Positions 1,851 through 64,000 of a stretch of DNA of 64,000 nt are shown piece by piece. Within the stretch, counting starts at the first letter, position 1. Each line of letters opens with the position of its first letter. The notes beneath the pieces are model-generated. The model was given only the letters and a program-made list of their open reading frames with translations, was not told where the DNA came from and ran no database searches. Source of the DNA: Vogesella sp. LIG4 (GTDB taxonomy: Bacteria; Pseudomonadota; Gammaproteobacteria; Burkholderiales; Chromobacteriaceae); contig NZ_LT607802.1 in the NCBI RefSeq assembly GCF_900090205.1, forward strand, positions 1,651,215-1,715,214, read 5' to 3'. The translations under genes and the position numbers were made by a program.

Positions 1851-1916
1851 ATACATCACCCGGGCCAGTGAGCGCTCGGGACTAGGTTGGCCGCAAGACG
1901 GCAACGGAGAAACAAG

Positions 1917-2990
1917 ATGAGCATCCAGGTACAGAACATACACAAGGCATTCGGCGATTTCGTCGCCCTCGACAATCTCTCGCTGGATTTCCCCAGCGGC
2001 GAACTGGTGGCGCTGCTGGGGCCGTCCGGCTGCGGCAAGACCACGCTGCTGCGCGTCATCGCCGGGCTGGAGCAGGCCGACAGCGGCCGCGTGCTACTGG
2101 ATGGCGAGGACGCCTCCGACACCCACGTGCGCGAGCGCCAGGTGGGCTTCGTGTTCCAGCACTACGCGCTGTTCCGCCACATGACGGTGTTCGACAACGT
2201 GGCCTTCGGCCTGCGCATGAAGCCGCGCAGCCAGCGCCCGAGCGAGGCGGACATCAAGCGCAAGGTGCATGAGTTGCTGAGCCTGGTGCAGCTGGACTGG
2301 CTGGCGGACCGCTTCCCGGCGCAGCTGTCCGGCGGCCAGCGCCAGCGCATCGCCCTGGCGCGCGCGCTGGCGGTGGAGCCGCGCGTGCTGCTCTTGGACG
2401 AGCCGTTCGGCGCGCTGGATGCCAAGGTGCGCAAGGAGCTGCGCCGCTGGCTGCGCCGCCTGCACGACGAGCTGCACATCACCTCCATCTTCGTTACCCA
2501 CGACCAGGAAGAAGCGCTGGAAGTGGCCGACCGCGTGGTGCTGATGAACCACGGCCGCGTGGAGCAGATCGGCAGCCCGGGCGAGGTATACCGCCAGCCG
2601 GCCACGCCCTTCGTCTATGGCTTCCTGGGTGCGGCCAACCGTTTCGAGGGCAGCGGCAGTGCCGGCGGCATCGCGGTGGGCAGCGCCCGCCTGTCCAGCG
2701 AGCCGGGCTACGATGGCCGGGTGATCGCCTTCGTGCGGCCGCATGAACTGGATATCATCCCCAGGGAGGCGGGCGAGGGCATACCGGCGCGCATCAGCCG
2801 CGTGCTGACGCTGGGTGCGCTCACCCGCGTGGAGCTGGAGGGTCGCGACGAGCTGGCCGGCCAGCAGTTCGACGTGGAACTGCCGGCGGAAAGCCTCCTT
2901 GCCGCCGGCCTGCAGGCCGGGCAGCCGGTACGACTCAAGCCGCGCAGCGTGCGCGTGTTCGCCAACAACGAAACGGCAGGTGCCGCATGA
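1917..2990 (+). CDS. cysA: Sulfate/thiosulfate ABC transporter ATP-binding protein CysA
   Basis: This is the ATPase that powers the CysTW permease. The 357-aa protein shows Walker A (GPSGCGKTT, about residue 38), the Q-loop, the signature LSGGQRQR, Walker B (LLLDEPFG) and the switch His in [10 protein letters not shown]-terminal TOBE-like regulatory domain follows (about 240-355). I chose the ATG at 1917, not the open frame extending to 1887, because ACGGAGA sits just before it and MSIQVQNI matches the usual CysA start. Its last four bases overlap cysB. A copy of the dispersed GTTGGCCGCA word lies in the leader at 1886-1895 and another in the gene (2630-2639). Confidence 0.95.
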
Positions 2991-3916
2991 ATTTCCAGCA
3001 GCTACGCATCATCCGCGAGACAGTGCGGCAGAATTTCAACCTCACCGAGGTAGCCAATGCGCTGTTCACCTCGCAGTCCGGCGTCTCCAAGCACATCAAG
3101 GACCTGGAAGACGAGCTGGGCGTGGAGCTGTTCGTGCGCAAGGGCAAGCGCTTTCTCGGCCTGACCGACCCCGGCAAGGAGCTGCTCACCATCGTCGAGC
3201 GCATGCTGCTGGATGCCGGCAACATCAAGCGCCTGGCCGAGCAGTTCAGCCAGCGCGACGAAGGCCAGCTCACCATTGCCACCACCCATACCCAGGCGCG
3301 CTACGCGCTGCCCAAGGTGGTGACCGCGTTCAAGAAGGCCTTCCCCAAGGTACACCTGGTGCTGCACCAGGCCAGCCCGGACGAGCTGGTGCGCCTGCTC
3401 TTGGCCGGCGAAGCCGACATCGGCATCGCCACCGAGGCGGTGGCCGAGGTGCCGGAGCTGGTGTCCTTCCCCTACTACAGCTGGCACCACGCGGTGATCG
3501 CACCGCCGGAACACCCGCTGCATGGCCAGCCGCTGTCGCTGGAGACACTGGCCGATTACCCCATCGTCACCTACCACCAGGGCTTTACCGGCCGCGCGCA
3601 GATCGACCGCGCCTTCGCCGATGCCGGCCTGGCACCGGACATCGTGATGGCGGCACTGGATGCCGACGTGATCAAGACCTATGTGGAGCTGGAGCTGGGC
3701 GTGGGCATCATCGCCTCGATGGCGGTGGATGCGCAGCGCGACAGCCAGGTGCGGGTAGTGCCGGGCGAGCCGCTGTTCGGCCACCAGACCACCCGCGTCG
3801 CCATCCGCCGCGGCCACTACCTGCGCAGCTTCGCCTACCGCTTCATCGAGCTGTGCTCGGCGGCGCTGGACGAAGACACCGTGCGCCGGGCGCTGTCGCC
3901 GCTGGCGCAGGATTGA
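2987..3916 (+). CDS. cysB: LysR-type regulator CysB
   Basis: CysB is the activator of sulfur-assimilation genes; it senses N-acetylserine and sulfate or thiosulfate. The 309-aa protein begins [13 protein letters not shown], the hallmark CysB/Cbl start, followed by a winged helix-turn-helix ([19 protein letters not shown], residues about 20-40) and a substrate-binding domain that keeps TTHTQARY and TYHQGFTGR. It overlaps cysA by four bases (ATGA), so regulator and transporter are one operon. In enterobacteria cysB stands alone, so this linkage suggests it governs the operon it belongs to. Confidence 0.93.
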
Positions 3917-3963
3917 GCTGATTACGATCTTTGGCTCGCGAGGACGTGAGCCTGTTCTGCAAT

Positions 3964-3996
3964 GCTTGCGGCCAACTTTGAAGGTTGGCCGCAAGC
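3964..3996 (+). terminator. Hairpin terminator built from an inverted pair of the dispersed word
   Basis: GCTTGCGGCCAAC (3964-3976) and GTTGGCCGCAAGC (3984-3996) pair perfectly over 13 bp around a 7-nt loop, 47 nt after the cysB stop. There is no strong T-tract. The position at a 3' end and the two copies of GTTGGCCGCA parallel the uptake-sequence terminators known in Neisseria. Confidence 0.65.
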
Positions 3997-3997
3997 A

Positions 3998-4113
3998 CGT
4001 AGGTTGGGTTGAGCGTAGCGAGGCCCAACGTTTACCGGGTTGGTTTGGTGGTGTTGTCGGGTGTGGAATCCGCTGCGCGGATGATGTTTGAAGTAGCCGG
4101 TTCCGCCCGGCGC
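3998..4113 (+). repeat. Intergenic repeat R2, copy 1
   Basis: It starts CGTAGGTTGGGTTGAGCG and ends near GTAGCCGGTTCC. The GTTGGG/CCCAAC arms can form a hairpin, and a GCGCGGAT segment lies inside. The second copy is at 4435-4533. I name no published family. Confidence 0.6.
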
Positions 4114-4337
4114 ACGGGGTACTTTCTTTTGCTTTGCCAAAAGAAAGTACCCAAAGAAAAGGCGACCCGGGGCTGCTCGAAACCCCGTGCAAAAAGGCAC
4201 GCCCCAGGCGCCGCCGAACTCGTCCCTCGCTAACGGCTCGGGACTCAGACAGATCGGCGTCTTAAAACCTGGGGCGCACCATTTTGCCCGCGCTCGCGCC
4301 AACGGGATTGGGGCAAGTCGGTTCGGTTCAGCCGGCT

Positions 4338-4370
4338 CGTAGGGTGGGCAAAGCGCAGCGTGCCCACCAG
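4338..4370 (+). repeat. Intergenic repeat R1, partial copy
   Basis: Reads GTAGGGTGGGCAAAGCGCAG and then GTGCCCACCA. Fuller copies with both arms lie at 19113-19190 and 37790-37869. Confidence 0.6.
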
Positions 4371-4434
4371 TGTGATGTTGGCCGCATCCACCCAGGAGCA
4401 AGGCAGCCGTCAGCACGGCGTTGTGGTGCCAGCC

Positions 4435-4533
4435 CGTAGGTTGGGTTGAGCGTAGCGAAGCCCAACGTTTACCGCGTTATCCGGTTTTGTATCCGCTACG
4501 CGGATGATGTTTGAAGTCGCCGGTTCCGACCGG
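4435..4533 (+). repeat. Intergenic repeat R2, copy 2
   Basis: Matches 3998-4113 at the start (CGTAGGTTGGGTTGAGCG) and at the end (GATGATGTTTGAAGT), with a shorter and diverged middle. The ATCCGC-TAC-GCGGAT hairpin lies inside. Confidence 0.6.
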
Positions 4534-4553
4534 CATATGTGGATTGGCTCGCG

Positions 4554-4635
4554 GTAGGGCGGGTTGGCCGCAGGCCATACCCGCGCAGAGTTGGCGGCTT
4601 GCGCGGGGATGAACCGTTGCTTCAACCCGCCCTAC
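4554..4635 (+). repeat. Intergenic repeat R3, copy 1 (contains the dispersed word)
   Basis: Inverted-repeat element bounded by GTAGGGCGGGTTG and CAACCCGCCCTAC. It carries GTTGGCCGCA at 4563-4572. Related copies are at 10009-10045 (partial, without the word) and 37657-37744 (full, with the word). Confidence 0.6.
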
Positions 4636-4662
4636 TTGCTGGGAGAGCGGCTTTGCCACGCG

Positions 4663-4694
4663 GCGGCCAACCTTGTTGCGATAAGGTTGGCCGC
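4663..4694 (-). terminator. Word-pair hairpin after the DMT exporter gene
   Basis: GCGGCCAACCTT (4663-4674) and AAGGTTGGCCGC (4683-4694) form a perfect 12-bp stem with an 8-nt loop, 17 nt past the stop of the minus-strand exporter gene. One arm carries the exact 10-mer (4686-4695); the other differs at its last base. Confidence 0.6.
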
Positions 4695-4710
4695 AAGCAT
4701 TTTCTGCCCA

Positions 4711-5589
4711 TCAGCTACGCACCGCCCGTGCCGGCAGCGCCTGCCACAGCGCCGCGCCGGCGATCAGCAGGCCGCCGATCCAGCCGCTGCCGGCCAGCGG
4801 CTCGCCCAGCCAGGCCACCGCGAACAGCGCGCCCCACAGCGGCTCGCTGCCCAGCAGCAGCGCCACCTTGCTGGGGCTGGAGTCGGCCAGCGCGCGGTTC
4901 ATCGCCCAGAAGGCGAACAGGGTGCAGAACAGCACCAGGAAGGCAATGGCCAGCCAGAACGGCGCCACTGTCGGCAGCGGCGGCAGCCCGCCGGGCTGCA
5001 GTAGCGCGAGCAGTAGTGCCCCGACGCCCACCAGCGCGCTCTGCACGCCGGTGAGGCCCAGCATGTCGATACCCTTGCCGGCGGTAAGCCGGGTGGCAAG
5101 GCAGGTCTGCACGGCACGCAGCAGCGCCGCCAGCAGCATCAGCGCATCGCCGCTGGCAAAGCGGCCGGCCGCCATGCCGGTGAGCAGCCAGGTGCCCAGC
5201 AGCGACACGATGGCCGCCAGCCATAGCCGCGCCGCCGGGCGTTTGCCGAACCACAGCCATTCCACCGGCGGCGTCAGCAGCAGGCACAGGCTGATCAGGA
5301 AGGCGGCGTTGCCGGCGCTGGTGTGCGCCACGCCATAGGTTTCCACCAGGATCACCGTCAGCAGCCCGGCGCCTATCGGCAGCGCCGCTCGCAGCGTGGC
5401 AGCCTGCTGCGCGCGCGGCAGCCGCAACCAGTAGGGCAGCAGCAACAGCGCGCTCAGCAGAAAGCGCAGCGCGATGACGCCGGCTACCGGGTAGAAGGCC
5501 AGCGCGCTCTTCACCATGCTGTAGCTGCCGCCCCAGATGGCGGCGGTGAGCAGCAGCAACAGTTCGGCGGGAATCAGGATGCGGTTCAT
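4711..5589 (-). CDS. EamA/DMT-family transporter
   Basis: This is an inner-membrane permease of the drug/metabolite transporter superfamily, a group that exports amino acids, nucleosides or small metabolites; the substrate cannot be told from sequence. The 292-aa protein has about ten hydrophobic segments and the family opening AAIWGGSYSMVKSAL, plus the internal EamA duplication whose second half ends PLAGSGWIGGLLIAGAAL. A GGAG ribosome site lies just upstream of the ATG. It is divergent from a LysR regulator 87 nt away, which probably controls it. Confidence 0.88.
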   Translation of the reverse strand: MNRILIPAELLLLLTAAIWGGSYSMVKSALAFYPVAGVIALRFLLSALLLLPYWLRLPRAQQAATLRAALPIGAGLLTVILVETYGVAHTSAGNAAFLISLCLLLTPPVEWLWFGKRPAARLWLAAIVSLLGTWLLTGMAAGRFASGDALMLLAALLRAVQTCLATRLTAGKGIDMLGLTGVQSALVGVGALLLALLQPGGLPPLPTVAPFWLAIAFLVLFCTLFAFWAMNRALADSSPSKVALLLGSEPLWGALFAVAWLGEPLAGSGWIGGLLIAGAALWQALPARAVRS

Positions 5590-5676
5590 GGCGGGCTCCT
5601 TGCATGTGTTGGCTACCAGTATGAAACTGCATGCCGGTATTGATAATCGGCCATTCAGGCACAGGATTTTTGCGCC

Positions 5677-6603
5677 ATGAGAACAAGTGAGCTATTGCCG
5701 CTGCTGGCGGACCTGGCAGTGCTGGTGGAAGTGGTGGAGGCGGGTTCCTTCAGCGCCGCCGCGCGGCTGCAGGGCAGCACGCCGTCGGCGGTGAGCCGGC
5801 AGATTGCCCGGCTGGAGGCGGCGCTGGGGCTGAAGCTGCTGGAGCGCAGCACGCGGCGGCTGCGGCTGAGCAGTGGCGGGCAGGAGGTGCTGCGCCACGC
5901 CCGCGCCATGCTGGAGGCGGCCCGCGCCGCCTGCGACGGCGCTGCGCACCACGCCAGCAGCGTCAGCGGCCGGGTAAGGTTGGCCGCACCCAAGGCGGCG
6001 CTGCGGCAGCTGATTCATCCACAGCTGCCCGGCCTGCTGCAACTTTATCCACAGTTGTCGCTGGAGTTGCAGGTAACCGACCAGGTGGTGGACCTGATCG
6101 CCGACGGCGTGGACATCGCGCTGCGCCTGGGCGACCCGCCGCCCGGCTACGTGGCGCGGCCGTTCATGGAGGTGCGTACCCTGCTGTACGCCGCGCCGGC
6201 CTACCTGGCGGCCAACGGCACGCCGCAACATCCGGCCGAGCTGGTGCGCCACAGCTGCCTGCAGCTGGCGGAGCTGCCGGGCGACGACGAATGGTGCCTG
6301 ATGCGCGACAACGAGCGGGTGGTGGTGAATGTGCGCGGCCGCTATGCCAGCAACCACAGCGAGATGCGGCGCGAAGCAGCCGAGTGGGGGCTGGGCATCG
6401 CCTGCCTGCCGGATTTCTCGGTACGGCAGCAGCTGGCGGATGGCAGCCTGCAGCAGGTGCTGCCGGGCTGGCAGTTGCTGGGGCGCTACCAGGGCAGCTG
6501 CTGGCTGGTGTACCACGCCGACCGCTACCGCTCGCCACGGGTGCGCGCGGTGGTGGATTACCTGCTGCAGATTGCTGCCGATCTAGGCCAGCAGCGCGCG
6601 TAG
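5677..6603 (+). CDS. LysR-family transcriptional regulator
   Basis: 308-aa regulator with an N-terminal winged HTH (FSAAARLQGSTPSAVSRQIARLE, about residues 24-47) and a C-terminal substrate-binding domain of the AaeR/DsdC-like type often seen next to DMT exporters. It is divergent from the EamA gene and likely regulates it. Codons for RLAA around 5976-5988 are AGG TTG GCC GCA, rare choices here, and they spell the dispersed word. The last 21 nt overlap the 3' end of the convergent chrA gene. Confidence 0.88.
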   Translation: MRTSELLPLLADLAVLVEVVEAGSFSAAARLQGSTPSAVSRQIARLEAALGLKLLERSTRRLRLSSGGQEVLRHARAMLEAARAACDGAAHHASSVSGRVRLAAPKAALRQLIHPQLPGLLQLYPQLSLELQVTDQVVDLIADGVDIALRLGDPPPGYVARPFMEVRTLLYAAPAYLAANGTPQHPAELVRHSCLQLAELPGDDEWCLMRDNERVVVNVRGRYASNHSEMRREAAEWGLGIACLPDFSVRQQLADGSLQQVLPGWQLLGRYQGSCWLVYHADRYRSPRVRAVVDYLLQIAADLGQQRA

Positions 6604-7908
6604 CAGGCCGATGCCGGCACAGGCGGCAATCACCGGGATTACGCCGCGGCCGCCCTTTACCAGCGCCCACAGGCTGGCGGCGGCCAGCAGCGCGGCGAAC
6701 CAGTCGATGCCGGCGGCGAGTCCGTGCGGCCACAGCAGGTGCCGGCCGAAGAACAGCGCCAGGTTGACGATCACCCCCACCACCGCGGCGGTGATGGCGG
6801 TAAGCGGCGCGGTAAAGCCCAGCTTGCCGCGGGTGTGCTCCACCAGCGGTGCGCCGGCGAGAATGAACAGGAAGGATGGCAGGAAGGTGTACCAGGTGAC
6901 CCAGCTGGCGGCGACGATGCCGCTGATGCTCGCGCTGCCGGCGCCGAACAGCGGCGCGCCGTAGCCGCCGACAAAGGCGACGAAGGCCACCACCATGATC
7001 AGCGGCCCCGGCGTGGTTTCGCCCAGCGCCAGGCCGTCCATCATCTGCCCCGGGCTCAGCCAGCCGAAGTGCGTCACCGCGCCCTGGTAGACGTAGGGCA
7101 GCACCGCGTAGGCGCCGCCGAAGGTCAGCAGTGCCGCCTTGGTGAAGAACCAGCCCATCTGCGGCAGCGTGTGCTGGCTGCCGGCAAGGCTGACGGCCAG
7201 CAGCATCGGCAACCCCCACAACAGCGCACCGCTCAGGATCAGGCGCAGCAGCTTGCCGTGGCTGTAGGTGGCATGTGGCGGTGGCGGGGTGTGGTCGTTG
7301 ATCAGCGCCTGGCTGTCGTCCGGCGCGCCGCTGGCGGCGTGCCCCTTGCCGCCGGCAAATACCTGCGGCCAACGTCTGGCACCCAGCCAGCCGGCCATGC
7401 CGGCCAGCAGCACGATGGCCGGGAACGGCAGCGCGAATAGCGCCAGCGCCAGCAGCGCGGCGGCGGCGATGCCCCACAGCAGCGGGTGCTTCAGCGTGCG
7501 GCTGCCTATGCGCCAGGCGGCCTGCAGCACGATGGCCAGCACCGCCGCCTTGATGCCGGCAAAGGCGCCGGCCACCAGCGGCAGCTGGCCGAACACCATG
7601 TACAGCCAGGACAGCGCAATCAGGATCAGCAGCGAGGGCAGCACGAACAGCACCCCGGCCACCACGCCGCCGCGGGTACGGTGCATCAGCCAGCCCAGGT
7701 AGGTGGCCAGCTGCTGTGCCTCCGGCCCCGGCAGCAGCATGCAGTAGTTGAGTGCGTGCAGGAAACGCTGCTCGGAAATCCAGCGCTTGTTGTCCACCAG
7801 CTCACGGTGCATCAGCGCGATCTGTCCCGCGGGGCCGCCGAAGCTGAGCAAGCCCAGCTTCAGCCAGAAGCGCAGGGCATCGCGAAATGGCACGGCGGGG
7901 TGGGACAT
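6583..7908 (-). CDS. chrA: Chromate transporter ChrA (two-domain)
   Basis: Membrane protein of the CHR family; members expel chromate, giving resistance. The 441-aa protein carries two CHR halves: FWLKLGLLSFGGPAGQIALMH at the N-terminus and FFTKAALLTFGGAYAVLPYV from about residue 220. It is thus the long, bidomain type. I start it at 7908 (MSHPAVPF, with GGAG upstream) because the longer open frame to 7932 would run into the fpr terminator hairpin. It converges with and overlaps the LysR gene by 21 nt. Some ChrA-like proteins carry other anions, so chromate is inferred from the family. Confidence 0.88.
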   Translation of the reverse strand: MSHPAVPFRDALRFWLKLGLLSFGGPAGQIALMHRELVDNKRWISEQRFLHALNYCMLLPGPEAQQLATYLGWLMHRTRGGVVAGVLFVLPSLLILIALSWLYMVFGQLPLVAGAFAGIKAAVLAIVLQAAWRIGSRTLKHPLLWGIAAAALLALALFALPFPAIVLLAGMAGWLGARRWPQVFAGGKGHAASGAPDDSQALINDHTPPPPHATYSHGKLLRLILSGALLWGLPMLLAVSLAGSQHTLPQMGWFFTKAALLTFGGAYAVLPYVYQGAVTHFGWLSPGQMMDGLALGETTPGPLIMVVAFVAFVGGYGAPLFGAGSASISGIVAASWVTWYTFLPSFLFILAGAPLVEHTRGKLGFTAPLTAITAAVVGVIVNLALFFGRHLLWPHGLAAGIDWFAALLAAASLWALVKGGRGVIPVIAACAGIGLLRALLA

Positions 7909-7953: not shown

Positions 7954-7998
7954 CGGGAACAAGGTTGGCCGCAAGGGCCAGGCTTGTTGTTACTTCTA

Positions 7999-9022: not shown

Positions 9023-10012
9023 ATGAAACTGTGCGTGATAAACGGGGACGGCATCGGCCGCGAGGTGGTTCCACAGGCGCTGCGGGTGCTGCAAACGCTG
9101 CTGCCGGCGCTGCAAACGGTAGCGGCGGAAGCCGGATGGGACACATTCCGCCAGCACGGCACCGCGCTGCCGGCTGCCACGCTGGCGGCAGCGCGCGACT
9201 GCGGCGCGGTGATCTTCGGAGCGGTGAGTTCGCCGGCGCACAAGGTGGCCGGCTACCGCTCGCCCATCGTGCAGCTGCGCCGCGAGCTGGGCTGCCACGC
9301 CAACCTGCGGCCAACCCTGAGCCTGCCCGGCTGCGGCGTCGACGGCATCGACCTGCTGATCGTGCGCGAGAACACCGAGGACCTGTACATCGGCGAGGAG
9401 CAGTCCGACGGCGACACCGCCTCCGCCATCAAGCGCATCACCCGCGCCGCCTCGCAGCGGGTGGCGCAAAGCGCCTGCGAGCTGGCGGTGGCCGAGGGCC
9501 GGCGGCGGCTTACCATCGTGCACAAGGCCAATATCATGCCGCTCACCGACGGCCTGTTCCGCGACGTGGCGCGTGAGGTGGCGGCCGGCTACCCGCAGCT
9601 GGCGGTGGACGAGCTGCTGGTGGATACCGCCGCGCTGAAGCTGGCGCAGGCGCCGCAGGGCTTCGATATGTTGCTGGCGCCCAATCTGTACGGCGACATC
9701 CTGTCCGACCTGGCGGCGGCGTTCGGCGGCGGCCTGGGCGTGGCCGCCTCGCTGAACCTGGGCGCGCAGGCCGCCATTGCCGAGCCGGTGCATGGCTCGG
9801 CGCCGGACATCGCCGGGCAGGGCATTGCCAACCCGGTGGCCAGCCTGCTGTCGCTGGCCATGCTGCTGCGCCACTGGTGGCGGCTGCCAGAGTTGGCCGC
9901 ACGGCTGGAGCAGGCGGTGCGCGCCACGCTGGCGGCCGGCACCCGCACGCCGGATCTGGGCGGCAGTGCCGGTACGGTCAGCTTTTGCGATGCAGTGATT
10001 GCGCGGCTGTAG
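9023..10012 (+). CDS. Homoisocitrate/isocitrate/isopropylmalate dehydrogenase family protein
   Basis: NAD(P)-dependent beta-decarboxylating dehydrogenase of the IDH/IMDH/HICDH family, 329 aa. Seen: NGDGIG at the N-terminus, RSPIVQLRREL (substrate-contact helix), LLIVRENTEDLYIG, the Lys in VHKANIMPLTDGLF, YGDILSDLAAA with the two metal-binding Asp, and EPVHGSAPDIAGQGIANP. The RSPIVQLRR helix and PLTDGLF stretch look closest to homoisocitrate dehydrogenase, not leuB or icd, but no lysine-pathway or leucine genes adjoin it. The usual metal-site neighbour VDN is VDT here. True substrate (tartrate/malate-type is also possible) is unknown. Confidence 0.75.
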   Translation: MKLCVINGDGIGREVVPQALRVLQTLLPALQTVAAEAGWDTFRQHGTALPAATLAAARDCGAVIFGAVSSPAHKVAGYRSPIVQLRRELGCHANLRPTLSLPGCGVDGIDLLIVRENTEDLYIGEEQSDGDTASAIKRITRAASQRVAQSACELAVAEGRRRLTIVHKANIMPLTDGLFRDVAREVAAGYPQLAVDELLVDTAALKLAQAPQGFDMLLAPNLYGDILSDLAAAFGGGLGVAASLNLGAQAAIAEPVHGSAPDIAGQGIANPVASLLSLAMLLRHWWRLPELAARLEQAVRATLAAGTRTPDLGGSAGTVSFCDAVIARL

Positions 10013-10256: not shown

Positions 10257-11525
10257 ATGACTTCCCCTGTTTCCCCTTTCCTGTCTGCCGGCCGGCTGGA
10301 GGCCGTGTCGCAGCGGCTGTACCTGCTGCGCTGGGCCATGCTGGGCAGCGCGCTATTGCTGCTGTTGCTGGCGTTTGCCCGCCAGCTGCAGCTGCCGTGG
10401 CTGCTGCTGTGGCAGGCGCTGACCACGCTGGCGCTGCTCAACCTGTCGCTGCCCTGGCTGGCGCGGCGCGCGCTCGGCCCGCGGCAGTTGCTGGCGCTGG
10501 GGCTGGCCGGCGATGTGCTGGTGCTGACCGAGCTGCTGGCGTTCAGCGGCGGTGCGGCCAACCCCTTGGCCTCGCTGTACCTGCTGCCGGTGCTGTTCGG
10601 CGCCTTGCTGCTGCCGGCGCGGCAGGCCTGGGGCCTGGCGCTGGCCAGCCTGGGCGCCTACGCGCAGCTGTTCGCCTGGCATCTGCCCTGGCCGCTGGCC
10701 GGCGACGATGCCGCCTACGCTTTCCGCCTGCACCAGGTCGGCATGTGGCTGACCTTCGCCGTGTCGGTGTTGCTGCTGACGCTGTTCGTGTCCTACCTGG
10801 TGGCGCAGTTGCAGCAGCGCGAGGCGGCGCTGGCGGCGGCGCGCGAAGCACAACTGCGCAACGAACAGCTGGTAGGGCTGGGGGTGCAGGCCGCGGCGGC
10901 GGCGCACATGCTGTCCACCCCGCTGGGCACGCTGACCCTGCTGTGCGACGAGATGCTGCACGACGCCAGCGGCGCGCAGCGCGACGACCTGCTGCTGATG
11001 CAGCGTCAGCTGCAGCTGTGCCGTGAGGCGCTGGTGCAGTTGCGTGCCGGCAGCAGCGGCGAGGGCGAAGTGCTGCCGGTGTGCCGCCAGCTGGAACTGC
11101 AGCTGCAGGGCTGGCACAGCACACGGCCGCAGGTGCGGCTGCTGCGGCTTGGCCTGCTGGAAGGCGGCCCGGCACTGCGGCTGGATGCACGCTTCTGGCC
11201 GGCGCTGTTCAACCTGCTCAACAACGCTGCCGATGCCGCCGGTAGCGGCGCGGCTGACAGCTGCGAGGTGGAGCTGAGCGTGGCGGTGGAGGGTGCCTGG
11301 CTGCGGCTGGATATCCACAACCGCCGCGGCAGCCTGAGCGCGGCGCAGCTGCAGCAGGCCGGCTTGGCGCCGCTGGATTCCGGCAAGCCGGCCGGGCTGG
11401 GCCTGGGCGTGCTGCTGTCGCATGCCACGCTGTCGCAGCTGGGTGGCGAACTGAAACTCGACAACGACCCGGCCGGCGGGGTGCGCGCCATCGTGCGCTT
11501 GCCGCTGGACGGGCAAAGCGGATAG
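10257..11525 (+). CDS. regB: Redox-sensing histidine kinase, RegB/PrrB/RoxS family
   Basis: Membrane kinase that senses the quinone pool and phosphorylates RegA to tune respiration, carbon and nitrogen metabolism. The 422-aa protein has an N-terminal bundle of about six membrane segments holding the quinone-site motif GGAANPLASLYLLP (about residue 97), the H-box AAAAHMLSTPLGTL (His near 217), a Cys in LCREAL that could match the redox Cys of RegB, and an ATPase domain with NLLNNAADAA and GLGLGVLLSH. I start at 10257, where hydrophobic sequence soon begins, since the open frame upstream is unlike the family. It precedes regA by 3 nt. Confidence 0.85.
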   Translation: MTSPVSPFLSAGRLEAVSQRLYLLRWAMLGSALLLLLLAFARQLQLPWLLLWQALTTLALLNLSLPWLARRALGPRQLLALGLAGDVLVLTELLAFSGGAANPLASLYLLPVLFGALLLPARQAWGLALASLGAYAQLFAWHLPWPLAGDDAAYAFRLHQVGMWLTFAVSVLLLTLFVSYLVAQLQQREAALAAAREAQLRNEQLVGLGVQAAAAAHMLSTPLGTLTLLCDEMLHDASGAQRDDLLLMQRQLQLCREALVQLRAGSSGEGEVLPVCRQLELQLQGWHSTRPQVRLLRLGLLEGGPALRLDARFWPALFNLLNNAADAAGSGAADSCEVELSVAVEGAWLRLDIHNRRGSLSAAQLQQAGLAPLDSGKPAGLGLGVLLSHATLSQLGGELKLDNDPAGGVRAIVRLPLDGQSG

Positions 11526-11528: not shown

Positions 11529-12053
11529 ATGAACAGCATCCTGATCATCGACGACGACGCCACCTTTGCCACGGTGCTGGCGCGTAGCCTGGCCCGCCGT
11601 GGCTTGACCGTGACGCATGTCGCCAGCGCAGCGGCGGCGCTGGACGCGCTGCAAGCGGCGCCGGACGGCATCATCCTCGACCTCAACCTGGCCGGCGACA
11701 GCGGCCTGCGCCTGCTGCCGCAGCTGCTGGCCGCCGCGCCGGCGGCGCGGGTGCTGGTGCTCACCGGCTATGCCAGCATTGCCACCGCGGTGGAGGCGGT
11801 GAAACTGGGGGCGGTGAACTACCTGGCCAAACCGGCCACGGTGGACGACATCCTGGCGGCGCTGGGGCAGCTTGCGGCCAACCCGGAGGCGCCGCTGGCC
11901 TGCGCGCCGATGTCGCTGAAGCGGGTGAGCTGGGAGTATCTGCAGCGGGTGCTGGCCGAACACGGCGGCAATGTGTCGGCCACCGCGCGGGCGCTGGGCA
12001 TGCACCGGCGCAGCCTGCAGCGGATGCTGGCAAAACGGCCGGTAAAGGAATGA
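11529..12053 (+). CDS. regA: Response regulator RegA/PrrA/RoxR
   Basis: Partner of RegB. The 174-aa protein has a receiver domain (acidic D8-D9-D10, phospho-acceptor D51 in ILDLNL, Lys in LAKPATVDD) and a C-terminal Fis-type HTH (GNVSATARALGMHRRSLQRML, about 147-167), which is the exact RegA build. Codons for LAAN at 11871-11882 are CTT GCG GCC AAC and spell the dispersed word in reverse. It forms a two-gene operon with regB and ends in a hairpin terminator. Confidence 0.88.
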   Translation: MNSILIIDDDATFATVLARSLARRGLTVTHVASAAAALDALQAAPDGIILDLNLAGDSGLRLLPQLLAAAPAARVLVLTGYASIATAVEAVKLGAVNYLAKPATVDDILAALGQLAANPEAPLACAPMSLKRVSWEYLQRVLAEHGGNVSATARALGMHRRSLQRMLAKRPVKE

Positions 12054-18998: not shown

Positions 18999-19112
18999 GG
19001 TGAAAGGCCGTCGGGCTGCAAAACGGCGATGATACGGGGCGCGCCGGCTGGCGGCCAACTGTCTTGTGACGGCGGCATGGGCAGGCTTGCGGCCAACGTG
19101 TACTTCGTCACA

Positions 19113-20605: not shown

Positions 20606-20642
20606 TGCGGCCAACCCTGACCATGCTGCAAGGTTGGCCGCA
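20606..20642 (-). terminator. Word-pair hairpin after the nitronate monooxygenase gene
   Basis: TGCGGCCAAC (20606-20615) and GTTGGCCGCA (20633-20642) form an 11-bp stem with a 15-nt loop, 17 nt after the stop of the gene at 20660 and ahead of the aldehyde dehydrogenase start. Confidence 0.6.
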
Positions 20643-26024: not shown

Positions 26025-26065
26025 ACAAGTTGGCCGCATGCCCGCCGGGCGTGCGGCCAACTTGT
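26025..26065. terminator. Bidirectional word-pair terminator between convergent genes
   Basis: ACAAGTTGGCCGCA (26025-26038) pairs perfectly over 14 bp with TGCGGCCAACTTGT (26052-26065). The 13-nt loop region holds a further GCCC/GGGC stem. It lies 25 nt after the small membrane gene and 16 nt before the convergent sirB2 stop. Confidence 0.8.
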
Positions 26066-37656: not shown

Positions 37657-37744
37657 CGTAGGGAGGGTTGGCCGCAGGCCATACCCGCGCGAGCTGGCAG
37701 CTGGCTGGGCGCGGGTATGAACCGCTGGTTCAACCCGCCCTACG
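37657..37744. repeat. Intergenic repeat R3, full copy (contains the dispersed word)
   Basis: CGTAGGGAGGGTTGGCCGCA ... GGTTCAACCCGCCCTACG, with GTTGGCCGCA at 37667-37676. Same arms as 4554-4635. Confidence 0.65.
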
Positions 37745-38514: not shown

Positions 38515-38547
38515 GCACCCTCCGGGTTGGCCGCAAGGCGGCGGGGG

Positions 38548-51537: not shown

Positions 51538-51572
51538 TGCGGCCAACGTTGCGTGGTGCAAGGTTGGCCGCA
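51538..51572 (-). terminator. Word-pair hairpin between gabT and gabD
   Basis: TGCGGCCAAC (51538-51547) and GTTGGCCGCA (51563-51572), 10 bp plus an inner TTGC/GCAA, in the intercistronic gap. It may trim or stabilise the gabT transcript and lower gabD. Confidence 0.55.
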
Positions 51573-53179: not shown

Positions 53180-54484
53180 TCAGAAGAAGCGGTTCACGCT
53201 GGCTACTGCCTGGTCGTCCAGTTCGCCGGCCGCCAGCGCCAGGGCGAGGCGTGCATACAACAGGTTGTAACGTGCCGAGGCCAGTGCGCGTACCGCGTCC
53301 TGATAGCTGCTTTCGGCGTTCAACAGGTCGAGGTTGGTGCGCACGCCGACTTCGCGCCCCAGGCGGGTGGCGTCCAGCTTACTCTTGGCGGAGACCAGCA
53401 GCTGTTCCTGCGCCTTCACCTGCGCGGCGCCGTTGCTGACGCCCAGCCAGGCGCTGCGCACTGCCAGTGCCACTTCGCGGCGGGACAGTTCCAGGTCGTC
53501 GCGCGATTTCTCCAGGTTGGCCGCAGCCTCGCGCACCTGCGAGTTGATGCCGCCGCCGGCGTACAGCGGCAGCGTCAGGTTGACGCCCACGCTGTTGCCG
53601 GCGGTGCTGCCGCGGCCGCTCAGGCGGCTGGCGGGGTCGGTGGCGTGGTTGATGCTGTAGCCGGCGGATAGATCCACGGTGGGCAGGTGCTTGCCGCGGG
53701 CGGCGGTGAGGTTTTCCTCGGCCAGCTGTACCTGCTGCCGCGCGCTCTTGATGTTGAGGCTGCCGGCTTCGGCGCGATCCAGCCACGCTTGCAGGGTGCC
53801 CAGTTCGTTGCCCAGATCGACGCGGCCCTTGAGGTGGTTGATCTGCTCCGGCTTCAGGCCGGTGAGCTTGGCCAGGGTGTTGCGCTTGATTTCCAGGTCG
53901 CTCATGGCGGCAATTTCGCTGGCCAGGGCGCCGTCGAAGCCGGCTTGCGCTTCATGGGTGTCGGTAATGGTGGCGGTGCCGACTTCGAAGGCCTTCTTCG
54001 CCTGCGCCAGCTGGTGCTCGAACGCCTTCTTGGTGGCCTGGGTGGCGCTCAGCACGTCCTCGGCCAGCAGCACGTCCAGATAGGCGCGTGCCACGTCGGC
54101 GATCAGCTGCTGGCCGCTGGCACTGTATTGCACCTCGGCCAGCTCGCTGCTGATGCGGCCTTTCTTGTAGCCGGTGTAGCTGGCCACGTCGAACAGCGGC
54201 TGGTTCAGCTGCACGCCGACACTGCTGCTGTGGTAGGGGTCGGCATCCGGCCGGATCGGGTCGGTGCGGGTGATGCCGGCGGACAGCCCCACGCTGGGCA
54301 GCAGCAGGGCGCGGCCCTGTACCGCTTTTTCCTGGCCGGCCAGCAGGCTCTGCCGCGCACCGGCATAGCCGGCATCGTAGTCGCGGGCGGCCTGTACCGC
54401 GGCGGCCAGATCGAAGGCGGCGGCCGGCAGGCTGCCGCACAGGGCCAGCATGCCGGCAACTATCAGCTGGGTTTGCACTTTCAT
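53180..54484 (-). CDS. TolC-family outer membrane efflux channel
   Basis: 434-aa outer-membrane protein with a signal peptide (MKVQTQLIVAGMLALCGSLPAAAF) and the duplicated TolC pattern: N-half YDAGYAGARQSLLAGQEKAVQGRALLLPSVGLSAG, C-half repeated with LTLPLYAGGGINSQVREAAANLEKSRDDLELSRREV and the helical coiled coils. Length is that of TolC (about 430-470). It is the last gene of the tetR-MFP-RND operon, 102 nt after the pump gene, and serves it. Confidence 0.92.
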   Translation of the reverse strand: MKVQTQLIVAGMLALCGSLPAAAFDLAAAVQAARDYDAGYAGARQSLLAGQEKAVQGRALLLPSVGLSAGITRTDPIRPDADPYHSSSVGVQLNQPLFDVASYTGYKKGRISSELAEVQYSASGQQLIADVARAYLDVLLAEDVLSATQATKKAFEHQLAQAKKAFEVGTATITDTHEAQAGFDGALASEIAAMSDLEIKRNTLAKLTGLKPEQINHLKGRVDLGNELGTLQAWLDRAEAGSLNIKSARQQVQLAEENLTAARGKHLPTVDLSAGYSINHATDPASRLSGRGSTAGNSVGVNLTLPLYAGGGINSQVREAAANLEKSRDDLELSRREVALAVRSAWLGVSNGAAQVKAQEQLLVSAKSKLDATRLGREVGVRTNLDLLNAESSYQDAVRALASARYNLLYARLALALAAGELDDQAVASVNRFF

Positions 54485-54586: not shown

Positions 54587-57500
54587 CTAACCCGGGCGTT
54601 TTACCCGGAACCAGGCGGCGTACAGCGCCGGCAGGAACAGCAGCGTGAGTACGGTGGCGATCAGCAGGCCGCCCATGATGGCTACCGCCATCGGCCCCCA
54701 GAAGGTACTGCGCGTCAGCGGCACCATTGCCAGGATGGCGGCCAGCGCGGTGAGCATGATGGGGCGGAAGCGGCGCACGGTGGAGCCGACCACCGCCTCG
54801 AAGCGGTCTATGCCCTCGGCGATGTCGCTTTCGATCTGGTCCACCAGGATCACCGAGTTGCGCATGATCATGCCCGCCAGCGCGATCACCCCCAGCATGG
54901 CCACGAAGCCGAACGGCGCGCCGAACAGGATCAGCGTCAGGGTGACGCCTATCATGCCCAGCGGTGCGGTAAGCACCACCAGCAGCGTGCGCTGGAAGCT
55001 CTTGAGCTGCAGCATCAGCAGGGTGAACACGATGATCAGCATCAGCGGCTGCACCTTGGCGATGGCGCCCTGCGACTTCTGGCTGGCTTCCAGCGAGCCG
55101 CCCAGCTCGATGTGGTAGCCCAGCGGCAGCGTCTGCTCCATGGCCTGCAACTTGGGCCACAGCGCCAGCGAGATATCGGAGGCCTGCACGCCGTCGGCGG
55201 CATCGGCGCGCACCGAGATGGTGGGCAGCCGGTTGCGGCGCCAGATGATGCTGTCTTCCGGCGTGTAGCGGATATGGCCGATCTGCGCCACCGGTACGTA
55301 CTTGCCGCTGGCGGTCTGGATCATGAGGCTGCCCAGAGCGGCCACGTTGCGGCGCTCGTCGTTGGACAGCCGCGCCACCACGGCGATGGCCTTGTCGCCC
55401 TCGCGCCACTCGGTCACGCTGCTGCCGGTGAGCAGCAGCTGCAGCTGGCGCGCCAAGCCCTGGCTGGAGATGCCCAGTGCACGTGCCTTGTCCTGGTCGA
55501 TGTCCACGCGCAGCGCCTTCACCTGCTCGCCCCAGTCATTGTTGACGTGGCGCACCGCCGGGTGGCTGCGCAGCAGGTCTTCCACCCGGGCGGCAATGGC
55601 GCGCACCTGGTCGTGGTCGGGGCCCATCACGCGGAACTGCACGGCGTAGCCCACCGGCGGGCCGTTCTCCAGCCGGGTGACGCGGCCGCGCACCAGCGGG
55701 AAATCGTTTTCGAACAGCTGCTCCAGCTTCTGTTTCACGTTTTCGCGCACGTGTTCGTCGCGGGTCATCACCATCAGCTGCGCGTAGTTCAAGTGCTGCT
55801 GCTGCTGGTCCAGCGGCAGGTAGAAGCGCGGGCTGCCGCCGCCGACATAGCTGGTGACGCTGACAACATTACCGTCGCCGTGCAGCTTCTGCTCCAGCCT
55901 GGCCACTTCGCGCTGGGTGGCGGCGTAGTTGGCGCCCTGCGGCAGCCACATGTCCACCAGCAGCTCCGGCCGGTTGGAGGAGGGGAAGAACTGCTGCTGC
56001 ACGAACAGCTTGAACGCCACCATGGACAGCAGGAATGCGGCCAGGGTCAGCGTGATCACCGTCTTGCGGTGGTCCAGGCTCCATTCCACCGCGCGGCGGA
56101 AGCGGCGGTAGAACGGCTTCTGGTACACGTCGCCATGTTCATGCCCGGCCAGGCTGGCCGGCAGCAGGTGGAAGCCGAGGTAGGGGGTGAACACCACCGC
56201 GACGATCCACGACAGCAGCAGCGCCAGCGATACCACGGCGAACAGGCTGAACACGTATTCGCCGGCGTTGGATTTGGCCAGCCCCACCGGCAGGAAGGTG
56301 GCGGCGGTGATCAGCGTGCCGGTCAACATCGGGAAGGCGGTGCTGGTGTAGGCGTAGGTGGCGGCCTGGAACTTGTTCCAGCCCTGTTCCAGCTTCAGCG
56401 CCATCATTTCCACCGCGATGATGGCATCGTCCACCAGCAGGCCCAGTGCAATGATCAGCGAGCCCAGCGAGATGCGCTGCAGGTCGATATTGAAGAAGTA
56501 CATGGCGAGGAAGGTCATCGCCAGCACCAGCGGAATCGACAGCGCCACCACCACGCCGGTGCGCAGGCCGAGGCTGAAGAAGCTCACCGCCAGCACGATT
56601 ACCACCGCCTCCACCAGCGAGTGCATGAATTCGCTTACCGCGTTCTTCACCACCTTGGGCTGGTCGGATACCGCGTCCACCTGCACCCCTACCGGCAGCT
56701 TGGCGTGCAACTGCGCCATTACCTGCTCCAGGTTCTGCCCCAGTTTCAGCACGTCGCCGCCGGTTTTCATGCTCACCGCCAGGCCGATGGCCGGCTTGCC
56801 GTCAAAGCGCATGCCGAAGCTGGGCGGGTCGACGAACTGGCGCTCTACCTTGGCCACGTCACCCAGGCGGAAGCTCCTGCCGCCGGCGGAGAGCGGGGTG
56901 TCGGCAATGGCCTGCACCGAGTTGTAGCTGCCGCTGACGCGCACCCAGATGCGCTCGCCGGCGGTGTCGTAGCTGCCGGCCGGGGTCATGGCGTTCTGTG
57001 CGGCCAACGTTGCCCACAGCGTGCTGGCATCCAGCTGCATGGCGGCCAGCTTGGCGCTGTCCAGCGTCACGTAGATGCGCTCTTCCTGCTCGCCGACGAT
57101 GTCCACCTTGCCCACGTCCGGTACGCGCAGCACTTCCAGCTTGGCCTGCTCCACGTACTTGCGCAGGTCCTCGTAGCTGAAGCCGTCGCCGGTGAAGGCG
57201 TACAGGTTGCCGAAGGTGTCGCCGAATTCATCGTTGAAATATGGCCCCTGCACGCCGGCGGGCAGGGTGTACTGCATGTCGCTGATCTTCTTGCGCACTG
57301 TGTACCACAGCTGCTGCACGTTCTTCGGCGGCACTTCCTCGCGAATGGACAGGATCAGCGTGGCCTCGCCCGGCTTGGTGTAGCTCTTCACATATTCGAG
57401 CTCGCCCATTTCCTGCAGCTTCTTTTCGATCTTGTCGGTGACCTGCTGCTCGGTTTCCTGCGCGCTGGCGCCGGGCCACAGCACGCGCACCATCATGGCC

Positions 57501-57647: not shown

Positions 57648-58718
57648 TTACTGCTGCAGCAGGGTGATGTGCTGGCCGTCGCGCAGCAGGTGCACGCCGG
57701 CGGTCACCACCTTTTCGCCGCCGGCAAGGCCGCGGGTGATGGCAATGCTGTCGCCGTCGATGTCGCCGACTTCCACCGCCTTGCGGCCAACCTGCTGCTG
57801 GCCGTTGATCACCCACACGTAATGCTTGCCCTGGGTGTCGAGCATGGCGGCCAGCGGCAGGCGCAGCGTGCTGCCCTGGCCGGCCAGCTGCGCGCGCACG
57901 CTGGCGGTCATGCCCAGGCGTACGTTGCTGTCCGCCTGCGGCAGGGTGAGGCGCGCGGCGTAGGTGCGGGTGGCGCTGTCGGCATCGGCGGACAGCTCGC
58001 GCAGGCGTGCATCCAGCTCGCGGCCGTCGGCCCACAGTTTCACCTTGAAGCCGCTGGCCTGACGCACTGCGGCCACGGCGTTTTCCGGCACCTGGAAAGC
58101 CACTTCGCGCTCACCGTTGGCCGCAAGCCGTGCCACTGCCTGGCCGGCGGCAACCACCATGCCCGGCTCGGCGCTGATGCTGCCGATCACGCCATCGCTG
58201 TCGGCCAGCAGCGCGGTGTAGCTGCCCTGGTTGCGGCTGGCGGACAGCGCGGCTTGCGCCTGCTGCAGGCTGGCGCGCGCGGCGTTCACCGTGGTCTGCT
58301 GGCGCTCCACCTGGGCGGAGCTGATGAAGTTCTGTGCCAGCAGTTCGCGCGAGCGTTTCAGGTCGGCCTCCTGCTGCCCCAGTTCCGCCTGTGCGGCGCT
58401 GAGCTGCGCCTGCTTGGCGGCGGTGTCCAGCCGGTAGTCGCTGGCATCCAGCAGCGCCAGCACCTGGCCCTTCTTCACGCTGTCGCCGGCATTCACGCGG
58501 CGCTCCATGATCTTGCCGGCCACGCGGAAGGCGAGCTGGCTTTCGTGGCGGGCGCGGATCTCGCCGCTGAACTGGCGGCTGTTGCCGGCGCTGTCGCTGC
58601 CGGCCACCACGTAGCGCACCGGGCGGATTTCCTCCACCGGTTGGACTTCCTGTTTGCAGCCGGCCAGCGCCAGCAGCGTCAGGCTGGCCAGCGCCAGCGT
58701 GCGGTATTGCGGGGTCAT
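57648..58718 (-). CDS. Membrane fusion lipoprotein of the RND pump
   Basis: 356-aa periplasmic adaptor with a lipoprotein signal (SLTLLALAGC, Cys about residue 21), a barrel-sandwich (HESQLAFRVAGKIMERRVNAGDSVKKGQVLALLDASDY), coiled hairpin and beta-barrel (RLGMTASVRAQLAGQ). It links the RND pump to TolC. Start at 58718; the long open frame upstream shadows tetR. The word appears at 57782 (VGRK) and 58116 (LAAN). Confidence 0.9.
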   Translation of the reverse strand: MTPQYRTLALASLTLLALAGCKQEVQPVEEIRPVRYVVAGSDSAGNSRQFSGEIRARHESQLAFRVAGKIMERRVNAGDSVKKGQVLALLDASDYRLDTAAKQAQLSAAQAELGQQEADLKRSRELLAQNFISSAQVERQQTTVNAARASLQQAQAALSASRNQGSYTALLADSDGVIGSISAEPGMVVAAGQAVARLAANGEREVAFQVPENAVAAVRQASGFKVKLWADGRELDARLRELSADADSATRTYAARLTLPQADSNVRLGMTASVRAQLAGQGSTLRLPLAAMLDTQGKHYVWVINGQQQVGRKAVEVGDIDGDSIAITRGLAGGEKVVTAGVHLLRDGQHITLLQQ

Positions 58719-59407: not shown

Positions 59408-60446
<1,039 letters not shown>

Positions 60447-61069: not shown

Positions 61070-61099
61070 AAAAAGGTTGGCCATGCGGCCAACCTTTTT
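61070..61099. terminator. Bidirectional word-pair terminator
   Basis: AAAAAGGTTGGCC (61070-61082) pairs over 13 bp with GGCCAACCTTTTT (61087-61099), loop ATGC. T-runs on both strands, between the convergent CBS and IclR genes. One arm carries the full word (61084-61093); the other keeps GGTTGGCC. Confidence 0.9.
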
Positions 61100-62021: not shown

Positions 62022-62046
62022 ACTGAATTCCGCAACGCGGAACAGT
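62022..62046. promoter_or_regulatory. IclR-type operator candidate upstream of gcdH
   Basis: Perfect TTCCGC-AAC-GCGGAA (62028-62042), with flanking ACTG/CAGT. It lies 20 nt before the gcdH ATG, where bound protein would block transcription or translation. Confidence 0.5.
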
Positions 62047-62062
62047 ACAGAGGAGAAACGCA

Positions 62063-63250
62063 ATGGCCGCCAATTCCGCTCGTGCACCCTTCATGTGGGA
62101 CGATGCACTTCTGCTTAACGATCAGCTCACCGAAGAAGAACGCATGGTGCGCGAAGCCGCTTACGCCTACTGTCAGGAACGCCTGCTGCCGCGCGTGCTG
62201 ACTGCCAACCGCGAAGAGCGCTTCGACCGCGAAATCATGAGCGAGATGGGTGAACTGGGCCTGCTGGGCTGCACCATCGACACCCACGGCTGCGCCGGCC
62301 TGTCGCACGTGGCCTACGGCCTGATCGCCCGCGAAGTGGAGCGTGTCGACTCCGGCTACCGCTCCGCCATGTCGGTACAGTCCAGCCTGGTGATGCACCC
62401 GATCTGGGCCTACGGTACCGAAGCGCAGAAAGACAAATACCTGCCCAAGCTGGCTACCGGCGAATGGGTTGGCTGTTTCGGCCTGACCGAGCCGGATGCC
62501 GGCTCCGACCCGGCCGGCATGAAGACCCGTGCCCGCAAGACCGACGGTGGCTACATCCTCAAAGGCAGCAAGATGTGGATCACCAACAGCCCGATCGCCG
62601 ACGTGTTCGTGGTGTGGGCCAAGGATGACGAAGGCGAGATCCGCGGCTTCGTGCTGGAAAAGGGCATGAAAGGCCTGTCCGCGCCGAAGATCGAAGGCAA
62701 GTTCTCGCTGCGCGCCTCCATCACCGGCGAAATCGTGATGGACGACGTGTTCGTGCCGGAAGAAAACGCCTTCCCGGAAGTTCGCGGTCTGAAAGGCCCG
62801 TTCGGCTGCCTGAACAAGGCACGCTACGGTATCGCCTGGGGCGCGATGGGTGCCGCCGAGTTCTGCTGGCACGGCGCCCGCCAGTACACCCTGGATCGCA
62901 AGCAGTTCAACCGCCCGCTGGCCGCTACCCAGCTGGTACAGCTGAAGCTGGCCAATATGCAGACCGAAATCAGCCTGGGCCTGCAGGCCGCGCTGCGCGT
63001 AGGCCGCCTGATGGACGAAGGCCGCGCCGCACCGGAAATGATCAGCCTGATCAAGCGCAACAACTGCGGCAAGGCGCTGGACATCGCCCGCATCGCCCGT
63101 GATATGCATGGCGGTAATGGTATCAGCGACGAATTCCACATCATCCGCCACGTGATGAACCTGGAAGCTGTCAACACTTATGAAGGCACGCACGATGTGC
63201 ATGCCCTGATTCTGGGCCGAGCCCAGACCGGTATTCAGGCATTCGCCTGA
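62063..63250 (+). CDS. gcdH: Glutaryl-CoA dehydrogenase
   Basis: FAD enzyme that turns glutaryl-CoA into crotonyl-CoA in lysine, tryptophan and glutarate breakdown. The 395-aa protein has [87 protein letters not shown] and the catalytic Glu in [16 protein letters not shown], the typical GCDH signature. Start at 62063 with AGAGGAGAAAC ahead. The CoA-transferase downstream would make its substrate. Confidence 0.94.
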
Positions 63251-63309
63251 TGTAATGTTCCGCCGGCGGCCTCCACCCCGGCGGAATGTTGGTTCCTGTC
63301 TGTCCTTGA

Positions 63310-63336
63310 GGCCCGGTGCGACCGGGCCGTTTTTTT
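63310..63336 (+). terminator. Intrinsic terminator after gcdH
   Basis: GGCCCGGT (63310-63317) and ACCGGGCC (63321-63328), loop GCG, then seven T. A second hairpin, TTCCGCCGG/CCGGCGGAA, precedes it at about 63258-63286. Confidence 0.9.
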
Positions 63337-63417
63337 GTATCCATGCCGGTGGGACCGCCCAGCGGCATGGATATCCGGCCCTTGCGGCCAACGTTGAACA
63401 CATTAAGGAGTGGCGTT

Positions 63418-64000
63418 ATGTCTGGAGCACTGTCCGGTATCAAGGTTCTGGATCTCACCCGCGTACTGGCTGGCCCGTGGACCGGCCAGCTGCTGGCCGA
63501 TCTCGGTGCCGAAGTCATCAAGGTGGAGCGCCCGGGCAGCGGCGACGACACCCGCCAGTGGGCGCCGCCCAGCCTGGCGGACGGCACCGCCGCCTACTAC
63601 CTGGCGGCCAACCGTGGCAAACAGTCGCTGACCGTGGACATCACCACCGCTGCCGGCCAGGAAATCGTGCGCAAGTTGGCCGCACAGGCCGACGTGCTGC
63701 TGGAGAACTACAAGGTGGGCGGGCTGAAGAAATACGGCCTCGACTACGACAGCCTGCGCAAGGTGAACTCGCGGCTGGTGTACTGCTCCATCACCGGTTT
63801 CGGCCAGGACGGCCCGTATGCCGAGCTGCCGGGCTACGACTATATCGTGCAGGGCATGTCCGGCCTGATGAGCATCACCGGCCCGGCCGATGGCGAGCCG
63901 CACAAGGTGGGTGTGGCGGTTACCGACCTGTTCACCGGCCTGTATGCGGCCAACGCGGTGCAAGCGGCGCTGATCGCGCGCAACCGCACCGGCGAGGGCC
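63418..64000 (+). CDS. CaiB/BaiF class III CoA-transferase (partial, runs off the end)
   Basis: Open to the window's end (at least 194 codons). N-terminal part SGIKVLDLTRVLAGPWTGQLLADLGAEVIKVERPGSGDDTR and SITGFGQDGPYAELPGYD (active-site Asp) mark the class III family. Next to gcdH it is likely a succinyl-CoA:glutarate CoA-transferase that forms glutaryl-CoA. AAGGAG precedes the ATG. Words at 63675 (TTG GCC GCA) and 63945 lie in it. The rest is outside the window. Confidence 0.9.
   Translation, partial: MSGALSGIKVLDLTRVLAGPWTGQLLADLGAEVIKVERPGSGDDTRQWAPPSLADGTAAYYLAANRGKQSLTVDITTAAGQEIVRKLAAQADVLLENYKVGGLKKYGLDYDSLRKVNSRLVYCSITGFGQDGPYAELPGYDYIVQGMSGLMSITGPADGEPHKVGVAVTDLFTGLYAANAVQAALIARNRTGEG

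Follow-up and report, generated by a model that had tools for sequence, protein, structure and literature searches.

The window analysed here is a stretch of 64,000 nucleotides from Vogesella sp. LIG4 (contig NZ_LT607802.1, positions 1,651,215 to 1,715,214), a member of a freshwater genus, and it is strewn with copies of the 10-mer GTTGGCCGCA, a likely DNA uptake sequence (DUS). By exact matching, 59 copies were found, 32 in forward and 27 in reverse orientation. The mean in 100 dinucleotide-preserving shuffles of the window was 0.50 copies with a maximum of 3, and the word ranked top among the over-represented 10-mers (130-fold over the 0.45 copies expected from a third-order Markov model). 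A preliminary description of the window had counted at least 58 copies by hand (32 plus, 26 minus) between 1886 and 63954, against a rough expectation of 0.3 copies in random DNA. The exact search adds to the reverse count, the first copy does start at 1886 and the last occupies 63945-63954, and the excess stands with either of the new expectations.

Eight of the copies form close inverted pairs, namely 3967-3976 (reverse) with 3984-3993 (forward, intergenic), 20606-20615 (reverse) with 20633-20642 (forward), 26029-26038 (forward, intergenic) with 26052-26061 (reverse), and 51538-51547 (reverse, intergenic) with 51563-51572 (forward). The remaining forward copies are located at 1886-1895, 4377-4386, 4563-4572, 4686-4695, 5979-5988, 7964-7973, 9892-9901, 17071-17080, 17935-17944, 21641-21650, 22054-22063, 28613-28622, 29344-29353, 30038-30047, 30866-30875, 32689-32698, 36333-36342, 37667-37676, 38526-38535, 42007-42016, 43396-43405, 44781-44790, 45583-45592, 49508-49517, 53516-53525, 58116-58125, 59523-59532 and 63675-63684. 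The remaining reverse copies are located at 2630-2639, 7364-7373, 9306-9315, 10553-10562, 11873-11882, 19088-19097, 27490-27499, 29629-29638, 31688-31697, 34427-34436, 36633-36642, 36978-36987, 38917-38926, 39876-39885, 41649-41658, 47828-47837, 48296-48305, 50795-50804, 56999-57008, 57782-57791, 61084-61093, 63383-63392 and 63945-63954.

Behaviour of the word in the Vogesella genome

The genome consists of one contig of 4,147,242 bp, in which we counted 2,895 copies of GTTGGCCGCA, or 0.70 per kb, with 1,458 in forward and 1,437 in reverse orientation, compared to 8 copies of a control with the same letters reversed. Fine-scale statistics were obtained on 864 kb, made up of the window together with 40 segments of 20 kb each. 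This sample contained 607 copies, where a third-order Markov model predicts 6.6. Single-letter variants were scarce: 28 of 30 stayed under three times their expectation, the exceptions being G at +10 (36 versus 9.5 expected) and T at +8 (4 versus 1.1), and C at +10 was found 26 times with 13.4 expected. The rarity of most one-letter variants indicates that GTTGGCCGCA is a sharp word. The longer consensus seen in the preliminary description was recovered from 606 copies, which prefer AAG on the 5' side and (A/T)G(C/G) on the 3' side with hardly any bias beyond about three bases on each side, giving AAGGTTGGCCGCA as the fuller form.

With origin and terminus set by the sign changes of GC skew near 1.15 and 3.25 Mb, 305 copies were oriented with the leading and 302 with the lagging strand (binomial p = 0.94). 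Genes were called by a simple purpose-made gene caller. As already noted for the window, copies occur in genes as well as in gaps: genes contain 427 of the 596 copies that could be classified, 213 of them in the sense and 214 in the antisense direction, while 11 of the 607 straddle a gene border. The density between genes was 2.5 times that inside genes (1.45 versus 0.57 per kb). Neighbouring copies within 80 bp were found 62 times compared to 34 expected, 56 of them in inverted orientation, and inverted pairs spaced by 10-30 bp were common. The strand balance, intergenic excess and inverted pairs are typical of an uptake sequence and unlike what is seen for chi or for FtsK-orienting polar sequences (KOPS).

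Copy density was lower where GC content was low (Spearman 0.54 across 86 bins), which is perhaps partly an effect of composition. Long word-free stretches occur at L061:1-11957, L035:10892-20000, L031:12176-19641 and in L059, and the majority of these have a lower GC content than the remaining sequence; the one in L031 contains a minor-pilin cluster. Such stretches could mark imported or fast-evolving DNA.

Distribution and sister dialects

Exact word counts were performed on all 61 genomes, from ten genera, of the family that we take to be the Chromobacteriaceae, with genus g2 taken as Chromobacterium and g125 as Paludibacterium. All 13 Vogesella genomes carry 1,871-2,895 copies of GTTGGCCGCA, compared to 8-58 copies in all 48 others. 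In a sample of 250 genomes from the order, four Vogesella genomes had 1,936-2,895 copies and the other 246 at most 52, as read from the table by eye.

We also scanned blindly for abundant 10-mers in the other genera of the family, using 40 kb of a single genome per genus. GTTGGCCGAA ranked first in g124, g123, g127 and g126, and GTTGGCCGAG did so in g122; the 40 kb each from g2, g3, g125 and g121 yielded no comparable word. Exact counts of GTTGGCCGAA reached 2,168 in G283, 1,851 in G291, 1,368 in G117, 1,245 in G284, 1,104 in G292, 893 in G294, 579 in G282 and 183 in G293, and those of GTTGGCCGAG 1,940 in G280 and 1,590 in G281. These sister words thus occur in ten of the 48 non-Vogesella genomes, from six genera. 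Over the whole family, 23 of 61 genomes in seven of the ten genera have one main dialect each and 38 have none; word-bearing genomes number 0/19 in g2, 0/6 in g125, 0/4 in g121 and 1/10 in g3. On our reading, the Chromobacteriaceae have at least three dialects: GTTGGCCGCA, GTTGGCCGAA and GTTGGCCGAG. Counting GTTGGCCGCA and GTTGGCCGAA together gave, with controls in brackets, 2,065 (18) in V. indigofera, 63 (32) in C. haemolyticum, 89 (30) in P. purpuratum, 32 (31) in Chitinibacter sp. GC72 and 9 (11) in Snodgrassella communis. The aroB stretch of G027 was 100% identical over 845 bp to that of V. indigofera DSM 3303, which together with agreeing word counts identifies the genus as Vogesella, and G263 corresponds to C. 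haemolyticum by its counts. When one mismatch to GTTGGCCGAA was allowed in 399 genomes of the order, the eight word-bearing family genomes stood at about 5-8 times the control (by eye) and other genomes at up to about 3 times.

Minority words accompany the main dialect in three genomes, with 165 GAG words in G282 and 77 and 78 GAA words in G280 and G281. G282 has fewer copies than its congener (579 versus 2,168) and, with its GAG minority, looks as if it stood between dialects; G293, which is 84% complete, has fewer than its congeners (183 versus 893 and 1,104). Two further genomes, G286 (P. purpuratum) and G289, showed a modest excess of GTTGGCCGAA and GTTGGCCGAG (62 and 92; 45 and 85; controls 11-21), which may reflect an uptake word that is young, in decay or borrowed, and no word stood out in 100 kb of G286.

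No other abundant word was detected in wordless genomes of g2, g3, g121 and g125 (one genome each, 100-140 kb, plus 40 kb from another g125 genome), among them G264, G254 and G251. Even the highest-ranking 10-mers in 140 kb of G264 did not exceed 16 copies where 2.5 were expected, a density of about 0.1 per kb compared to 0.3-0.7 per kb in word-bearing samples. No abundant word was found in 40 kb of G199, a genome of family f41. Ten sampled f44 genomes served as a positive control for this k-mer scan, which recovered AG/AT-, muc- or king/sim-DUS in nine of them and none in the tenth, G089; based on these neisserial DUS, f44 is very probably the Neisseriaceae.

Pilins and competence genes

A ComP-like minor pilin, which the preliminary description had suggested looking for, is encoded at genome positions 1,559,002-1,559,421, about 92 kb before the window and adjoining aroB-aroK-pilQ. 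The predicted protein combines a type IV prepilin signal with a pilin domain that is nearest, among solved structures, to ComP. Neisserial ComP (PDB 2m3k, 5hz7, 2nba) was the best solved match by sequence, profile and Foldseek; in the VIA ranking, one ComP entry stood clearly at the top, and two were interspersed with other minor pilins. A [YF]K..(S/T)..WP.LP stretch is mostly conserved with neisserial ComP, and a C-terminal cysteine pair, comparable to a pair in 2nba, is invariant here. However, identity over the aligned domain amounts to 20-25%, and the gene differs from neisserial comP in its location next to aroB and after a gene for a FimT-like pilin, an arrangement that the examined loci show in Vogesella alone. 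By sequence, profile and predicted fold, this analysis shows a ComP orthologue in Vogesella, and we infer that it binds GTTGGCCGCA.

The FimT/GspH-like gene (L027:10470-11006; genome 1,558,469-1,559,005) overlaps the start of comP, directly precedes it in all 13 Vogesella loci and is about as divergent as comP. Its product is possibly a second DNA-binding pilin. Other pilins were considered as readers of the word and set aside: the PilE-type proteins encoded at L028:11883-12281 and L031:18980-19393, whose solved matches were PilE, PilA, geopilin and similar with no ComP listed, and a PilA-like protein (L026:9965-10399). The gene of the latter is the more divergent third pilin gene just before two nearly identical tandem pilA-like genes (L026:10438-10893 and 11066-11521). 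The NCBIfam names obtained for ten pilins were mostly unspecific. Outside the family, one f44 genome with mucDUS carries a pair of oppositely oriented comP-like genes separated by about 13 kb (G315:C130:31972-32268 and 45065-45361), and pilins from G127, G165 and G199 of family f41 scored 67-74 bits with the ComP domain profile.

ComEC (346.6 bits; cut-off 190.05), DprA (258.4 bits; cut-off 191.15) and a PilQ-like secretin are present, and the comP, ComEC and DprA matches have no internal stops. Taken together, the checks put forward in the preliminary description, namely a genome-wide count, strand bias relative to the origin, occurrence in near relatives and presence of competence genes, all came out as expected for an uptake sequence.

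In the window itself, two long overlapping open reading frames at 26570-33305 resemble RecC and RecB when their translations are read. A PADLOC scan of six window reading frames gave no match, and the first frame of this pair had no defence match.

Relation to neisserial DUS and weighing of explanations

In Neisseria, DUS occur on both strands without replication-strand bias, often as inverted pairs, and are enriched between genes; the Vogesella word behaves likewise. In either case a word of 10-12 letters is present in exceptional numbers, with 943 to 5,918 DUS copies reported per neisserial genome (PMC3630211). The letters also resemble each other. AGGTTGGCCGAA aligns gap-free and in the same register to AGGTCGTCTGAA with 9 of 12 positions identical (AG-mucDUS and AG-simDUS), a score reached by 0.8-1.1% of random or shuffled 12-mers when eight dialects, both strands and nine offsets are allowed. 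The Vogesella form matches mucDUS and simDUS at 8 of 12, as do 6-7% of random or shuffled words, and the bare 10-mers match neisserial dialects at 7/10 or 6/10, with chances of 15% and 58%. In a post hoc test on two dialects that included an A at -3, also common in the neisserial samples, the AA form reached 10/13 (0.06% of random 13-mers) and the Vogesella form 9/13 (0.7%). AG is favoured before the 10-mer in both groups, and the A to C change at +9 that separates the Vogesella dialect from its AA sisters is the step that distinguishes kingDUS from king3DUS (PMC10715097, PMC3630211). The A at +10 of every neisserial dialect (PMC3630211) is present in GTTGGCCGCA and GTTGGCCGAA and absent from GTTGGCCGAG. 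In contrast, none of the published dialects used for comparison has G at +5 or C at +7. The host family differs as well: in the passages of the 2013 survey cited here, DUS are dated after the split from Chromobacterium, and no obvious DUS is reported for five genomes that, by a placement partly presumed by us, belong to the family bearing the present words (PMC3630211). The uptake signal sequences (USS) of Pasteurellaceae are likewise self-tags for DNA uptake with dialects by clade, and their predicted receptor is also a minor pilin, ComN/PpdA; however, their letters (AAGTGCGGT, ACAAGCGGT) are unrelated and their hosts are of a gammaproteobacterial lineage (PMC12616744).

Chi and KOPS are also short, non-palindromic words in hundreds to thousands of copies, and GTTGGCCGCA might similarly serve chromosome maintenance, for instance as a nucleoid-protein site. 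Those words, however, are biased by replichore. The absence of such a bias here (p = 0.94) leads us to reject a chi- or KOPS-like word, and the intergenic excess, the close inverted pairs and the change of letters from genus to genus within one family likewise make a maintenance motif of any kind highly improbable. We regard it as just as improbable that the word is part of a transcription terminator or a repeat of the repetitive extragenic palindromic (REP) type. Closely spaced inverted pairs are frequent, and a nearby T-run was commoner for pairs within 40 bp of each other (6 of 48) than for single words (17 of 511; Fisher p = 0.0096), which would suit terminators. Yet 42 of the 48 pairs have no T-run by this rule, and the many copies within genes, in both directions, contradict terminators as the main reason for the word. 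Conservation that stops about three bases outside the 10-mer is unlike a mobile repeat, an origin that we reject.

Two other explanations accept an uptake sequence and differ in its reader or its present use. DNA binding by FimT-type pilins is known from other bacteria, and the constant position and similar divergence of the FimT-like gene before comP would fit a reader other than ComP, as would PilE-type pilins that pass the profile named after ComP and DUS. In the ten word-bearing genomes of other genera, however, the surroundings of comP gave no clear FimT-like match up to a distance of about 1.5 kb: those in L081 and L087 are weak and coincide with comP, and in L088 (G291) a pilin-like stretch before comP matched at E = 0.011. 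Since the two PilE-type pilins also have PilE, PilA and geopilin rather than ComP among their solved matches, reading by another pilin appears unlikely. Slightly less likely still is a relic of an ancestral DUS-dependent transformation since lost in living Vogesella. The literature searched yields nothing on Vogesella competence, and the low-copy genomes G293 and G282 could represent decaying systems. A decaying word should nevertheless leave many one-mismatch variants, which are rare here, and the competence gene matches are uninterrupted.

We therefore consider it very likely that GTTGGCCGCA is the Vogesella DNA uptake sequence, read by ComP and representing one Chromobacteriaceae dialect of a DUS system homologous to the neisserial one. 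Several observations weigh against this. The match of letters to neisserial DUS is only moderately significant. At positions +6 to +8 all three words read CCG, where all eight published neisserial dialects have a conserved CTG core (PMC3630211); as this published defining feature is not shared, we file the word as a variant and not as a plain member of the neisserial DUS. The ComP of the window genome scored 23.8 bits with Pfam ComP_DUS (PF16732), below the cut-off of 27.3. ComEC and DprA are both widespread in control genomes, which weakens their presence as support. Finally, wordless genomes of Chromobacterium and g3 keep ComP homologues (e.g. G267, G260, G074, G251 and G252). On the profile, 22 of 23 ComP orthologues matched ComP_DUS at E 1e-3 (best 8.8e-18) and PilE-type pilins of the same genome exceeded its cut-off, indicating that PF16732 neither proves nor excludes ComP. 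The wordless genomes indicate that ComP alone makes no word, and ComP may act there without one; by BLAST, the 2013 survey had reported no ComP in C. violaceum in the passage cited here (PMC3630211). The different dialect proposed in the preliminary description is thus borne out as a word in register with the neisserial DUS, at moderate significance, with sister dialects in six other genera.

The system probably works like its neisserial counterpart and is probably homologous to it, and the CCG-core dialects are in all likelihood read by the ComP orthologue. On the surface of the type IV pilus, a ComP-type minor pilin would prefer double-stranded DNA bearing the word, pilus retraction through PilQ would pull the bound DNA in, ComEC would pass a single strand inwards, and DprA and RecA would recombine it. 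Preferred uptake and recombination of word-bearing DNA from kin would spread the word and keep it in the genome. Such molecular drive, which presumably maintains the word, would account for a sharp 10-mer, its two-way orientation and its genus-wide presence, and would imply that Vogesella is naturally competent.

No account of a Vogesella uptake sequence was found in the literature searched, nor, by title and opening of the abstract among the papers listed, any of these words in DNA uptake; the search did not extend to the over-represented 10-mers of Pseudogulbenkiania, Lutiella, Laribacter and Chromobacterium in Table S1D of PMC3630211; as far as this search reaches, the dialect group is undescribed. 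Should the table hold a word of this group without recognizing it, the letters would be in print but not their interpretation. According to the parts of the sources cited here, the CTG core is conserved in all dialects (PMC3630211), and, in a 2025 paper, the selection of DNA through uptake words is still known from no families other than Neisseriaceae and Pasteurellaceae (PMC12616744). If our reading is true, a CCG branch with its own dialects and ComP orthologue in a sister family would revise both statements. We lean slightly towards a ComP/DUS system that predates the Neisseriaceae: the ancestor shared by that family and the Chromobacteriaceae would have had a C-pyrimidine-G core, from which CTG and CCG branches later arose. 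The word, and not the pilin, would then have been lost in Chromobacterium and most of g3, the word would also have been lost in Paludibacterium, and ComP without DUS would be a natural encoded state. The dialects would also provide distant receptor-word pairs from which to read which ComP residues set which base, and Vogesella would be a non-neisserial host for ComP-word tests, alongside wordless genera that keep ComP.

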